Assembly (NCBI GenBank): GCA_002841295.1 | Contig: PHEU01000014.1 | Location: forward strand, 1-48,348 | Direction: 5' to 3' | Origin: Actinobacteria bacterium HGW-Actinobacteria-6 | GTDB taxonomy: Bacteria > Actinomycetota > Coriobacteriia > Anaerosomatales > Anaerosomataceae | Length of the DNA: 48,348 bases | Shown: positions 37,900 to 43,503 of the stretch, piece after piece | How positions within the stretch are numbered: the stretch's first letter is position 1 | Layout of the letters: the number at the start of each line of letters is the position of its first letter | Notes under the pieces: model-generated | Databases searched by the model: none | What the model saw: the letters and a program-made list of their open reading frames with translations, nothing else | What the model was told of the DNA's origin: nothing | Translations under genes and position numbers: made by a program

Positions 37900-38693
37900 A
37901 ACACGCCCGCCTGCGCCAAGGCCAGAGACAGGCCCACAAACAGAAGCAGTGCGGCAAATGCGAGCTTGACGAAGCGCTCCTTCGCGACAGACGTGATCTT
38001 CGCGCCAATGAGCGCGCCCGGTATGACACCAATCGCGAGCAACGCCGCAAGTCCGAGGTCAACATGCCCTAGCAACGTATGCGTGATGCTCCCGGGAATG
38101 GATAGAATCGTCACCACCACGAGGGACGTTCCTATCGCCCGCTTGATATCGAACCCGAACCAGCGCACCAGCGCCGGAACAACGATGAAACCCCCACCCA
38201 GGCCAAGAAAGCCCGAGTAGAGCCCCGTGATCAGTCCGAGCGCGGCAAGGCTCAGTCGACGATTTCGCACGCTCTTGTGCGGCTCGGCAGGCAGCACGAC
38301 CAGCTCGGGAGATGCTGCTGGCCGGCGAAACGCTAGGAGGACCATGTCGATGGACATGTAGCTGATGACGCCCGCCGTCACGTACATGAGAAACGGGCCG
38401 CCGACCGCCTGCGTGGCAAGCGCGCCCGCCACCGAAGCAACCGCCCCCCATGCGCCCAGCGTCACACCAGCGCGCAGGTCCATGAGTCCCCGGCGATAGT
38501 ACGAGATCGCGCCCGAAATCGCGGTTGGCAGAATCACGGGCAGAGGCGTGCCAACGGCGATGAGCTCGCTTTGCCCGAGCAACAACCGAATCGCAGGCGT
38601 GGTCACGACCCCACCACCGATTCCGAACAGCCCCGATAGCACGCTTGAGATAAACCCTATCGCAACTGCAAGTAGTGATTGTCCTGCGCTCAT
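37896..38693 (-). CDS. TauE/SafE family membrane transporter
   Basis: This is an integral membrane protein of 265 residues with about eight helices and the two family repeats. The first is SSVLSGLFGIGGGVVTTPAI near the N-terminus, the second GLYSGFLGLGGGFIVVPALV in the middle. The family exports sulfite, sulfoacetate or other organosulfur anions; the substrate here is not determined. It overlaps both neighbours by a few bases. Confidence 0.92.
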   Translation of the reverse strand: MSAGQSLLAVAIGFISSVLSGLFGIGGGVVTTPAIRLLLGQSELIAVGTPLPVILPTAISGAISYYRRGLMDLRAGVTLGAWGAVASVAGALATQAVGGPFLMYVTAGVISYMSIDMVLLAFRRPAASPELVVLPAEPHKSVRNRRLSLAALGLITGLYSGFLGLGGGFIVVPALVRWFGFDIKRAIGTSLVVVTILSIPGSITHTLLGHVDLGLAALLAIGVIPGALIGAKITSVAKERFVKLAFAALLLFVGLSLALAQAGVL

Positions 38694-39934
38694 CAGTCCG
38701 GTCGGACCACCGGGAATCGCCCGGTGATGGCGCTGCGATCAACGCGACGCTCTCCAGTGAGCAGCGGCTTAAGTGCGACGTCCTCCCACAGCCTGTCCAT
38801 GAGCATCGGCCAGCGGCGCTGGAAGACGAAGTAACGCTCACAGTTGTCGCGTGCGAACGCCGATGCAGTCGGAACGACCGTCCGCGCGATATTCAGGTAC
38901 TCGCTACGCTCCTTGCCTGCAAGCGCGCGCATGATCGCGGTGATTCGTGCCCGCCAGCCGATCGAGGAGTCCACGAAGCGTCCCGGGTACGGATTGAGCG
39001 AATCGGGCGTCACCTGTCGCAGGTCCACCTGAGACTTGGAGAACTCAAGCTTACGGTGCTCGTAGATGAACCGGAAGACGTCCTGCCGGAATGCGCGCGC
39101 CTCGCTCGGCAGCTTCGGGGGGCGATGGATTATCGACCACTCGCCGTCCAGGAAGACGTCTCCGCCGTGCATGCGGGCGTTGATGACGTAGTCGATGTCC
39201 TCACCGCGAACGACCCACGGGTCGAACGAGACGTTCATGAACATGTCGCGGTGAATACCGAGGCATCCACCGAATGCCACGGCGCTTGGGCGTATGCGCG
39301 GCGGCGCAGCGACCACGCCAAGTGCCTCGTTGTACGCGTCGTCCTGGCGCCAGAACATGTCGTACCACGGCGCCGTGCCGGCCACCTGATAGCGTCCTTC
39401 TTCATCAGTGTAGTAGCCGCTCTTGGCAAGAATGGTCTTGCCTCCTGCAGTGGTCTCCCCGATTCCCTCGGCGGCGATCTCCAGGAACCGAGGATCGCTG
39501 ATGACCTGATCGTCATCAACGAACACGACAAAATCGCAGCCGAGAATCGCAGCCACCACAAGGCCCACGTTTCGAACGGCGCCGTAGCTGGCGAGCCCCA
39601 CAGCCGGAAGCACATCCGCGAACTCAAGCTGTTCCATGCGCCGATGGAGCGAGCCCATCTCGGCAGGACCGACGATGATCGAGTCGATGCCCGGGAAGTC
39701 CGCAAGGATGCCACGAACCCGATCCTCGGCCTCGTGCTCGATCGACGAATCAGAAGCGGCTACGAGCACGACGACTCTACCGAGTCCGTTCACGATCTCA
39801 AGCGAGCGCAGGCACTCGGGAAGCGTGCCGTCGGAGTCGATGACCGTAGGATGGTCGTATACGAAGGGGCCACGGTCGCTACCGCGCATGCGCCTTCGTG
39901 TCCAGAAAGTCGGTATGACAACGCACGGTTCCAC
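38693..39934 (-). CDS. Glycosyltransferase family 2-like protein
   Basis: The 413-residue protein starts VIPTFWTRRR and has a GT-A type nucleotide-sugar region with FVVFVDDDQVISDPRFL (DxD equivalent) near residue 170. GCLGIHRDMF and RGEDIDYVINARM lie later, the latter resembling the ED acceptor motif of GT2 enzymes. It has no signal peptide or clear membrane segment. The start is GTG with AAGGAG upstream. The acceptor may be a cell-surface glycan or a compatible solute; nothing in the sequence decides this. Confidence 0.75.
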   Translation of the reverse strand: MEPCVVIPTFWTRRRMRGSDRGPFVYDHPTVIDSDGTLPECLRSLEIVNGLGRVVVLVAASDSSIEHEAEDRVRGILADFPGIDSIIVGPAEMGSLHRRMEQLEFADVLPAVGLASYGAVRNVGLVVAAILGCDFVVFVDDDQVISDPRFLEIAAEGIGETTAGGKTILAKSGYYTDEEGRYQVAGTAPWYDMFWRQDDAYNEALGVVAAPPRIRPSAVAFGGCLGIHRDMFMNVSFDPWVVRGEDIDYVINARMHGGDVFLDGEWSIIHRPPKLPSEARAFRQDVFRFIYEHRKLEFSKSQVDLRQVTPDSLNPYPGRFVDSSIGWRARITAIMRALAGKERSEYLNIARTVVPTASAFARDNCERYFVFQRRWPMLMDRLWEDVALKPLLTGERRVDRSAITGRFPVVRPD

Positions 39935-40012: not shown

Positions 40013-40666
40013 TCACTTCGCGCTTGTCGCCTTCTCCGTGGCTGCCGAGCACTGCTTCATAACATCGACAAGTACCTTGTACGGTCGCGAACCCACCACT
40101 AGTTGCCTGCACATCAGTGCCGAGGGTGTGGTGCTCACGCCGAGCTCAATCGCGAGCTGCACGAAGGCATTCAGTCGCTCCTCGTACGTACCGTCCTGCC
40201 ACGCCTTCGTAACAGCAGCCGCATCCAATCCATGTGCTGCGGCGATCTTCAGCAGCACCTCCTGGCTGCCGATATCGAGCCCCAGGCCATAATGTGCCGA
40301 GAAGATCGCCTCGTGCACCGCCTCGTAGACATCCGGGCCCACATCTCGGGCCAGTTCAGCCATCACCATCGCGCGATGCGTCTTCGGAACAAAGTGCGGC
40401 AGAACCATCGGGTGCCCTGCCGCCTCAGCCAACCCGAGAAGATGAGCCTCGACATGCTCTGAGTGGTCGAAGTCGTTATCTGCGGCCGAGAGACCCTCCT
40501 CGGGCATGTCTGGTCGCAACTCGAACGGGACGTTCATCACGGGAACTGAGAATTCACGGGCAAGCTGCTCGTACCGGAACCGGTCGACGTAGCAGAATGG
40601 TCAAGCATAGTCGAAGAACACAAGCACCGGCTGAGTACCTGTCAGTCGTTCCTCGACGGCGCTCAC
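40013..40666 (-). CDS. Selenocysteine-containing FrnE/DsbA-family oxidoreductase
   Basis: This is a cytoplasmic thioredoxin-fold protein of 217 residues counting selenocysteine. The frame begins at GTG 40666, which overlaps the AmrS stop by four bases (GTGA), and runs through an in-frame UGA at codon 22 (40601-40603). The surrounding residues are VFFDYA-U-PFCYVDRF, where FrnE-type DsbA proteins have C-P-F-C. Downstream the protein is a complete FrnE-like domain (MNVPFELRPDMPEEG, GSQEVLLKIAAAHGLD, and cis-Pro region GVSTTPSALMC). A SECIS-like hairpin begins five bases after the UGA. The annotation from ATG 40540 alone would lack the active site. Expected chemistry is thiol/selenol-disulfide exchange; partner unknown. 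Confidence 0.85.
40565..40603 (-). promoter_or_regulatory. UGA codon and bacterial SECIS-like hairpin
   Basis: After the UGA and five spacer bases, the 31-base segment folds as CTGCT-a-CGT-cg-ACCGG-TT-CCGGT-ACG-AGCAG. That is a 13-bp stem with small bulges and an apical GGTT. The apical loop sits about 20 bases after the UGA, as in the fdhF SECIS read by SelB, which also carries an apical GGU. This strongly supports decoding as selenocysteine. Confidence 0.75.
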
Positions 40667-41670
40667 GTGCGCACCCCGAGCGGACGGCCACAGTGCGCGC
40701 AGCTTCCACCGTCAAGGCTCATGCTCAGCACAGCGTGTCCCTCTCGCTCGATTGCGGTGGCACCGCACGACGGACACCGCGTGTCCTCGCCGCCAGGCTC
40801 GTCGACATTGCCCAGAAAGACGAAGTGCAGTCCCTCCTCGGCACCGATCGCAACGGCTCTTTCAAGCGTCGGGATCGGCGTGGGCGGCAGGTGCGACAGC
40901 TCAACGTACGGGAAGAAGCGCGTGATGTGCCACGGCGTATCGGGGCCAAGTTCTCTCGCGATCCAGGCGGCGATACCATGCAGCGTGTCATCGTCGTCGT
41001 TGATCGTCGGGATGATGTTCGTGACGACCTCCACATGCATGTTCCATACCTGCCTGGCACGCACCGCCATCTCCAGCACGGGCTGCACAGAGCGAACCTT
41101 GCATAGGGTGTGGTACGTGCGATCGTCGAATGCCTTCACGTCAACACGCCAGACATCGATGACCTCGCCGATAGTGTCGAGACCCGCCTCGGTGATGTAG
41201 CCGTTGGTCACCATTACGGTGTAGAGGCCGGCAGCCCGGGCAGCCAGGGAGACGTCGAGCACGTACTCCACCCAGATCACGGGCTCGTTGTATGTGAACG
41301 CTATGCCCTCGCAACCATTCTCAAGGGCGAGACGCACGGCATCGTTCGGCGTCAACATGCTGAGTTCGCCGTCGCCGGGCTTCGAGCGGCTGATCTGCCA
41401 GTTCTGACAGTGCGCACAGTGCATAGTGCAGCCAACACTGCCAAGCGAAAACGCGCGCGTCCCCGGCCTGAAGTGAAACACGGGTTTCTTCTCGATCGGA
41501 TCGACGGCTGCGGCAGAAACGAGACCGTAGGTGAGCGGCACTAACCGACCACCGCGATTCTCGCGCACGCCGCAGACACCGGTCTTGTCGGGCGCGATCC
41601 GGCAGTCGTGCGGGCAGAGCAGGCAGTGCACCCGCTCGCCCTCAGCTTCCCAGAGAAGTGCCTCACGCAC
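40663..41670 (-). CDS. amrS: AmmeMemoRadiSam-type radical SAM protein AmrS
   Basis: This is a radical SAM enzyme of 335 residues. The cluster motif is in GCTMHCAHCQNWQIS. Additional cysteines lie at both ends: CLLCPHDCRI near the N-terminus and CPSCG...CAHCGRPLG at the C-terminus. The core YNEPVIWVEYVLDVS and TNGYITEAGL are typical of PflA-like AmrS proteins. Biological role of the family is unresolved; AmrA and AmrB partners are not in the window. It starts at GTG with GGGAGG and overlaps the selenoprotein gene by four bases, implying shared translation and perhaps shared redox function. Confidence 0.9.
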   Translation of the reverse strand: MREALLWEAEGERVHCLLCPHDCRIAPDKTGVCGVRENRGGRLVPLTYGLVSAAAVDPIEKKPVFHFRPGTRAFSLGSVGCTMHCAHCQNWQISRSKPGDGELSMLTPNDAVRLALENGCEGIAFTYNEPVIWVEYVLDVSLAARAAGLYTVMVTNGYITEAGLDTIGEVIDVWRVDVKAFDDRTYHTLCKVRSVQPVLEMAVRARQVWNMHVEVVTNIIPTINDDDDTLHGIAAWIARELGPDTPWHITRFFPYVELSHLPPTPIPTLERAVAIGAEEGLHFVFLGNVDEPGGEDTRCPSCGATAIEREGHAVLSMSLDGGSCAHCGRPLGVRT

Positions 41671-41679
41671 GGTGCCTCC

Positions 41680-43503
41680 CTAGCCGGGAGCCAGCCGCAC
41701 CTGGTCCTTCCCGGCGTGCATTGCCTCCCGGAGCGCCGCGTCCGCGGACTCCAGCAACGCCATCGGATCCGAGAGTGTCTCGGCAGCCGTTGCAACACCT
41801 GCCGAGACGCTCAGGGCGTTATCGTCTGTATACCCCTCAGCACGACCGATGTCCGCTTTGCGAATCGCCGAGCGGATCTTCTCGGTGACAGCGAATGCGG
41901 CGGTCTTGCCCACGCCCGGGAGCAGCACGGCGAACTGGTCCGCCACGTAACGCGCCGCCATGTCGGTGGACCTGAGTTGCACCGCCAACAGATTCCCAAG
42001 TGCGGCCAGTATCCGGTCACCGGCTTCTTCGCCGAGCGAGTCGTTGACCGATCCGAAGTCATCGATATCGAAGAGCACTAGTGACAGCGGCGCCTTGTAG
42101 CGAGCATGCCGGGCGACCTCAAGCTGCAACCGCTCCGCGAAGGCACGTCTGTTCCATAGCCCCGTCAGCGCATCGAGGGTCCGGGTCGCCTCAAGCGATT
42201 CCTCGGCGCTGGCAAGGCGCTGACGCTGCAGTGGGAAGCACATCGACCAGGTCGAGTCTCCACGCAAGATGGCGATTGCGTGCTCGACACAGGTGGGATA
42301 GCCACACGATCCACAGTCCAGTGCGTCCGCCCGGGTGGCGAATCCGCCAGAGACGAGCACCTCGTCTATCTGCTGCTCTTCCGGGCGCGGTATGTGCACC
42401 GGTTCCGCAATAAACGAGCGCACAAGCTCGACTGCAGGCAGGACGCCGAGCAGCGCACGGGTGCTCACACGTGTTGTGCCGGGCAACTCGCGGGCGGCCG
42501 CCTCGACATTGCGCTTCGAGAAGAGTGAGAGCCCCGGGTTGACCGCCGGACCGTCGATGCAGCCCTCGCAGTTGAGCATATCCACGATTGCAGGCGCAAT
42601 CTCACCCGAGGTCATCGCCGCGAGCAGACGATCGAGCGCTTCGATGCCGCGCACCACGTACACCTGCTGGCTGGTCATGTCACTGGCGGCAAGCGTCTTG
42701 CGCGGGAAGCCGTCAGTGAGCGAGATCTCCTTGAAGATCCCGGGCCTGCGCGGACCGGGCTCGATCGCCTTGCCTCGAACCGGATGCTGATGCTCGGACT
42801 CAGCGATCATCGACTTGAGTTCTGCGAAGTCGATCGCAGCATCGATAACACCACCAAACTGGGGATCGTGGACTTCATCCTTGCGTGCGTAGCACGGGCT
42901 GACGTAGACGATGGCGACATCGTCGGGATAGAGCGACCTGATGAGTCGTGCCTGCGCGACATATGGCGGCATCACGGGAGCGAGTGCTGGTGTCAGTGCC
43001 GGGTAGTACCGTCGCACAAAGTTCACGGCCACCGGACACGTCGAGCGCATGACGAGCAGCGAATCCTCGCGAGCGTGCACACGTTCGTACTCAGCCGCAA
43101 CCATTTCCTCGCCGAGAAGCGTGGTCTCAACCGAGTGGAAGCCGAGAATGGTGAGTGCGCGCTCAACTTGCGGCACGGTCATCGGATGCATGGCCGCGAT
43201 GAACTCCGTCGCCAGCAAAGCGATCACCGGTCGACGTCCTCTGAGCAAATCAAGAACCTGCGGGGTGTCATCCCTGACGATGTGGCCGCGTGCACCACAC
43301 TCGTTCACGCACTGTCCGCAGGCGATGCACTTCTCCTGGATAACCTCGGATCGCCCGTCGACGACGCGAATCGCCTTCACAGGGCAAGCGCGCACACAGC
43401 CCCAGCACTCACGGCACGCTTCCTTGCGATGGGTGATGAGCGGCTCCCGCAGCTTATCGGCTGTCACCTCGACACCGGCATCGTGTCCGGCTCTGTCACT
43501 CAT
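41680..43503 (-). CDS. [FeFe]-hydrogenase-like sensor fused to FeS domain and degenerate GGDEF
   Basis: The 607-residue protein has a 2[4Fe-4S] ferredoxin domain (Cys30, 33, 36, 40 and Cys59, 62, 65, 69). A hydrogenase-like domain follows with equivalents of the H-cluster motifs: L1 RSTCPVAV (Cys156), L2 SPCYARKDE (Cys204), L3 NCEGCIDGP (Cys312, Cys315). Next are a four-Cys FeS domain (Cys397, 400, 405, 422) and a C-terminal GGDEF fold (LDALTGLWNRRAF, FDIDDFGSVND). The GGDEF signature itself reads V-A-D-Q-F (520-524), so cyclase activity is doubtful. The layout resembles the sensory group C (HydS-like) hydrogenases, which sense rather than turn over H2. GGGGGATC precedes the ATG, and it lies 11 bases after QueT. 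Confidence 0.88.
   Translation of the reverse strand: MSDRAGHDAGVEVTADKLREPLITHRKEACRECWGCVRACPVKAIRVVDGRSEVIQEKCIACGQCVNECGARGHIVRDDTPQVLDLLRGRRPVIALLATEFIAAMHPMTVPQVERALTILGFHSVETTLLGEEMVAAEYERVHAREDSLLVMRSTCPVAVNFVRRYYPALTPALAPVMPPYVAQARLIRSLYPDDVAIVYVSPCYARKDEVHDPQFGGVIDAAIDFAELKSMIAESEHQHPVRGKAIEPGPRRPGIFKEISLTDGFPRKTLAASDMTSQQVYVVRGIEALDRLLAAMTSGEIAPAIVDMLNCEGCIDGPAVNPGLSLFSKRNVEAAARELPGTTRVSTRALLGVLPAVELVRSFIAEPVHIPRPEEQQIDEVLVSGGFATRADALDCGSCGYPTCVEHAIAILRGDSTWSMCFPLQRQRLASAEESLEATRTLDALTGLWNRRAFAERLQLEVARHARYKAPLSLVLFDIDDFGSVNDSLGEEAGDRILAALGNLLAVQLRSTDMAARYVADQFAVLLPGVGKTAAFAVTEKIRSAIRKADIGRAEGYTDDNALSVSAGVATAAETLSDPMALLESADAALREAMHAGKDQVRLAPG

Follow-up and report, generated by a model that had tools for sequence, protein, structure and literature searches.

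The gene, its frame and its neighbours

The stretch of DNA analyzed here, 48,348 nucleotides in full and referred to as the window, constitutes contig 50 in a draft assembly of 2.35 Mb and 69 contigs that is 95% complete, and the genome was searched both by family and by pattern. On the minus strand of the window, a predicted frnE-like (dsbA-like) gene lies directly downstream of a gene for an AmrS-type radical SAM protein (Table 1). Its GTG start (40666-40664, minus) overlaps the AmrS stop codon (40665-40663) as GTGA, its codon 22 (40603-40601, minus) is the sole in-frame TGA before the terminal stop, and past this codon the frame stays open to the TGA stop at 40013, all of which confirms the frame given in the original prediction. 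Standard gene calling does, as had been anticipated, begin at GTG 40540, the first start codon after the TGA, and yields a 175-residue ORF (40013-40540) without the active site, so that the catalytic strand-loop-helix is lost. When the TGA is read through, residues 14-202 of the product match the Pfam DSBA domain. No signal peptide was seen in the protein. FrnE-like code had been proposed on both sides of the TGA, and both the FFDYA that precedes it and the domain that follows it are indeed conserved in orthologues. Purifying selection acts on the gene, with dN/dS values of 0.19-0.25 against same-genus genes.

Table 1. Features of the frnE-like locus in the window
Feature	Position	Strand	Details
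AmrS-type radical SAM protein, upstream neighbor	40663..41670	minus	TIGR04337 5.2e-96; beside frnE across most of the order
frnE-like/dsbA-like selenoprotein gene (predicted)	40013..40666	minus	217 residues; GTG start; PF01323 1.1e-25
U directly before the predicted Sec UGA (codon GCT)	40604	minus	Sec/Cys comparison
In-frame TGA, candidate Sec22, first residue of U-P-F-C	40601..40603	minus	orthologue column; aligns with Cys22 of D. radiodurans FrnE
Predicted SECIS hairpin, 31 nt, directly downstream of the UGA	40565..40595	minus	folding; conserved loop
TGC, resolving Cys25 of UPFC, inside the hairpin	40592..40594	minus	
Apical segment GGUUCC, presumed SelB contact	40576..40581	minus	RGUUCM in 21/21 Sec forms
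Cys186, just past the Thr-Pro of the thioredoxin fold	40109..40111	minus	invariant in 22/22 aligned orthologues (alignment position C193)
Cys206, last helix	40049..40051	minus	invariant in 22/22 aligned orthologues (alignment position C213)

The gene sits in a block that is conserved in nearly all sufficiently long loci and that encodes, in order, a [FeFe]-hydrogenase-like/GGDEF protein, AmrS, FrnE, a glycosyltransferase-like protein, and TauE; AmrS was not found in two loci of one family (L070 and L129). The first of these proteins (41680-43503, minus) carries [FeFe]-hydrogenase-like, Fe-S, and GGDEF domains in a single chain, is conserved beside amrS-frnE, and is possibly a hydrogen or redox sensor that makes c-di-GMP. 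On the other side, the 413-residue protein at 38693-39934 (minus) has no Pfam match above cut-off (weak Glyco_tranf_2_3, E 0.011), retains 59-92% identity across the order, and adjoins frnE wherever the locus is long enough.

Sec and Cys orthologues and the sequence around the UGA

A profile of 22 family members was searched against 396 genomes of the class, and matches with E < 1e-30 were taken as strong. Of the 39 strong orthologues recovered, 21 have TGA as the active-site codon and the other 18 a Cys codon, which bears out the expectation that the codon-22 column would hold Cys or Sec in an alignment of homologues. The motif is UPFC throughout the Sec forms and CPFC in the Cys forms, with a single CQFC. 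None of the 39 has a second internal stop; those reported in addition for G003, G004, and G006 are terminal stops by their coordinates. Since numerous separate assemblies have the TGA, an error in a single assembly is ruled out as its cause. The Sec/Cys state changes six times or more on a tree of 37 orthologues, and starred branches force two of these changes. Together these genes form a natural series of Sec/Cys exchanges that spans the order within a single orthologous, syntenic gene. In three genomes (G019, G008, and G001; loci L046, L047, and L053, minus, codon ~1525-1528 of the reversed locus), a further, distant DsbA-like gene has an in-frame TGA (UVWC, UAWC) and is likely another selenoprotein.

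The original prediction also described a 31-nt hairpin that starts 5 nt after the TGA and has GGUU at its tip. The hairpin is there as described (40595-40565), but its full 31-nt helix is peculiar to the genus of the window. Folding of 40600-40565 gives -13.0 kcal/mol (z -2.56). When 21 Sec and 17 Cys forms are compared, the elements common to all 21 Sec forms are a 3-bp neck (ACC/GGU) and the 6-nt apical loop RGUUCM that it closes, with the loop beginning 22 bases from the first base of the UGA. Every Sec form reads ...GAC-CRG-TTC-MGG-T after the UGA, and the Cys forms do not. The UUC of the loop (codon +8, TTC) is lost in 15 of the 17 Cys forms; the two that keep it (L051 and L060, from one lineage) are probably recent Sec-to-Cys conversions with a fossil SECIS. 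Over codons +5 to +9, synonymous identity reaches 0.83 among Sec forms vs 0.54 among Cys forms, and further downstream both fall at ~0.4-0.6. RNAalifold recovers the neck and one compensated pair from the Sec forms and no structure from the Cys forms. Pairing of the lower stem was rejected as proof of a SECIS, since the named helix is formed in 83% of cells for the Cys forms and in 87% for the Sec forms; much of this pairing is dictated by the coding sequence, so it is not Sec-specific. The lower stem also differs in the genus of the window, where the bulge is shifted to the 5′ side.

The motif TGA-N(16-20)-ACC-RGTTCM-GGT occurs once in the 48-kb window, at frnE. Rfam holds no matching SECIS model for the hairpin region, and a sub-threshold SAH riboswitch match there (E 0.46, 16.5 vs 37 bits) lies on the other strand and was rejected as chance. 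The window gene has what defines a bacterial SECIS, namely a hairpin immediately downstream of the UGA with a G in a small apical loop, and, as far as the aligned sequences allow one to judge, this hairpin is the imprint of Sec decoding. The Sec/Cys set additionally displays a SECIS constraining the protein that it encodes, as VD[QR]FR in the Sec forms, and the fate of the element after loss of Sec, as fossil loops.

The base just before the active-site codon also separates the two groups: a T stands there in 18 of 21 Sec forms of FrnE vs 2 of 17 Cys forms (Fisher 9e-6, for sequences that are not independent). By comparison, ~13% of the codons for Ala and Thr in these frnE genes end in T. GCT still precedes the active-site codon in one of L051 and L060. 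In SelD the codon before the TGA is GGT in 30 of 30 cases, with GGT accounting for 17% of Gly codons in those genes, and in FdhA, whose Sec codons were located by in-frame TGA, it is CTT in 5 of 5 (loci behind the counts outside the window are L131-L160, L161, L163, and L166-L168). A U at this position accompanies Sec UGAs in three protein families that are unrelated to one another, and most Cys orthologues lack it. SelD genes in other classes of the phylum have GGT, GGC, GGG, and a few GGA before the TGA, so the bias depends on lineage. A literature search on U before a Sec UGA found nothing, which is weak evidence of absence. Whether this U is a second cis signal for Sec decoding in this lineage, besides the hairpin, is a tentative suggestion that we consider rather unlikely to hold; if it did, the P-site codon-anticodon pair beside the UGA might weaken release factor 2 or favor SelB. 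Should the bias itself hold up, it could serve as an easy additional predictor for Sec codons in genomes of this lineage.

Probable selenocysteine insertion and the competing readings

The Sec machinery whose presence the original prediction had called for was found in the same assembly as the window. Both selA (4.1e-183) and selB (1.4e-111) were matched, with selD, selA, and selB in a row on one contig and the gene for tRNA-Sec ~4 kb further on. Rfam scores this tRNA-Sec at 53.5 bits (gathering score 47), whereas ARAGORN gives no call for it; the anticodon loop CUUCAAA contains the UCA anticodon. No UCA anticodon was seen in the other tRNA genes examined, one of which is truncated and reads as GTC. 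The selD gene (L026:9022-10050) also contains a TGA in frame, close to the N-terminal end of the protein (TKSG-U-AAK), and standard calling would therefore set its start too far downstream; the SelD TGA recurs in 34 of 34 genomes searched, with the G011 match in two pieces and the TGA in the smaller one. Because selA is found almost throughout the order (in 44 of 53 genomes), the presence of the machinery has no discriminating power among these genomes, and co-occurrence of selA with the UGA form was set aside as uninformative. In three UGA-form genomes (G013, G089, and G119), no selA was found; selB is present as fragments in G013 and G119, with none convincing in G089.

Taken together, the window gene very probably encodes a cytoplasmic FrnE-type oxidoreductase in which a UGA is read as Sec22 under the direction of the hairpin and SelB. 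The hairpin, located within the coding sequence after the UGA, would recruit SelB carrying Sec-tRNA(UCA), which would outcompete release factor 2 and place Sec at residue 22. The product would be a cytoplasmic thiol/selenol-disulfide oxidoreductase with the active site Sec22-Pro-Phe-Cys25. We infer that the Sec22 selenolate attacks the disulfide of a substrate and that Cys25 resolves the mixed selenenyl-sulfide. Cys186 and Cys206 may help to regenerate the active site.

One competitor is a Cys gene in which the TGA arose by nonsense mutation or by an error of sequencing, leaving either a decaying pseudogene or a truncated protein that starts at GTG 40540. The shortened ORF that standard gene calling yields is in line with this reading, yet a start at 40540 would drop the catalytic strand-loop-helix, and the same codon is TGA in 21 orthologues from separate assemblies with no other internal stop. 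A dN/dS of ~0.2, the conservation of FFDYA before the TGA and of the domain after it, and the freezing of synonymous sites specifically in Sec forms all run against decay as well. We consider a pseudogene or truncation very improbable and, as far as sequence can, refuted. The earlier preference for Sec insertion over a nonsense mutation is accordingly upheld by the series of TGA and Cys orthologues, the Sec machinery, the Sec-only loop with its synonymous freezing, and the dN/dS.

Reading of the UGA as Cys or another residue, whether by a suppressor tRNA for opal codons or by an altered genetic code, would suit the Cys found at this position in orthologues. However, the sole UCA anticodon seen among the tRNA genes is that of tRNA-Sec, and a suppressor would need no conserved-loop hairpin. 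Both amrS and the window frnE end in an ordinary TGA stop, so the code has not been globally reassigned, and we give this explanation very little credence. It is also conceivable that the UGA is mainly regulatory, acting as a stop under selenium shortage and allowing full-length synthesis under selenium supply, so that what matters would be the truncated product or the fate of the mRNA. In theory, every bacterial selenoprotein gene could have such a role, and the GTGA overlap couples translation of frnE to amrS, but nothing points to a function for a 21-residue peptide and the conservation lies in the downstream domain, which makes this role extremely improbable. Sec insertion remains the reading that we adopt, and it restores the catalytic site to a gene that standard annotation would cut short there. 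Annotation pipelines often miss selenoprotein genes; in one test, 195 of 298 were correctly annotated (PMC12013277).

Comparison with known FrnE proteins and selenoproteins

In terms of family, both sequence and fold searches support FrnE, which comes first among functional matches and whose structures are the best among DsbA-fold proteins. NCBIfam has no model above cut-off for the protein (best Rcas_1661 family, 29.5 vs 190 bits). The best solved relative is FrnE of Deinococcus radiodurans (DR_0659; PDB 5cnw, 5xwh), which has the same fold (Foldseek 1.4e-10, TM 0.78) and likewise is without a signal peptide. Its catalytic Cys22 aligns with U22 of the window protein, and its CP(W/F)C position with UPFC, so the predicted Sec22 stands in place of Cys22. 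D. radiodurans FrnE additionally carries a C-terminal Cys239-x4-Cys244 tail, although this CxxxxC motif, found in many FrnE proteins, is absent in some and so is not strictly required (PMC8945050). The window protein lacks the tail, ends at residue 217, and beyond its active site has the invariant Cys186 and Cys206 instead. SCO1869, a DsbA-like protein of Streptomyces coelicolor (PDB 3gl5), shares fold and family with the window protein at ~24% identity over the structural alignment and lies outside the orthologous group studied here.

The SECIS of E. coli fdhF is a hairpin just downstream of the UGA with G-U in a small apical loop, AGGUCU. The window hairpin is alike in its place after the UGA and in the G-U of its small apical loop, but differs in having the loop RGUUCM, a 3-bp neck, and a lower stem that varies by genus. 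Among selenoproteins, the Sargasso Sea set yielded DsbA-like UxxC proteins (COG2761) in 2005 (Zhang; PMC1088965). One count gives 41 organisms with such proteins (PMC5029168), and a 2026 review includes them under PF01323 (PMC13188914). The window protein has the PF01323 domain with UxxC by which this family is defined (PMC1088965, PMC13188914). With DsbA-like selenoprotein form 1 (COG2761/PF01323) it shares this domain, a UxxC with Sec first, a bacterial SECIS-type hairpin after the UGA, and widespread Cys homologues, whereas the gene, from Coriobacteriia/Anaerosomatales, has its own conserved SECIS loop and neighborhood. The type of selenoprotein is already known, and the window gene is a new, well-supported member of it.
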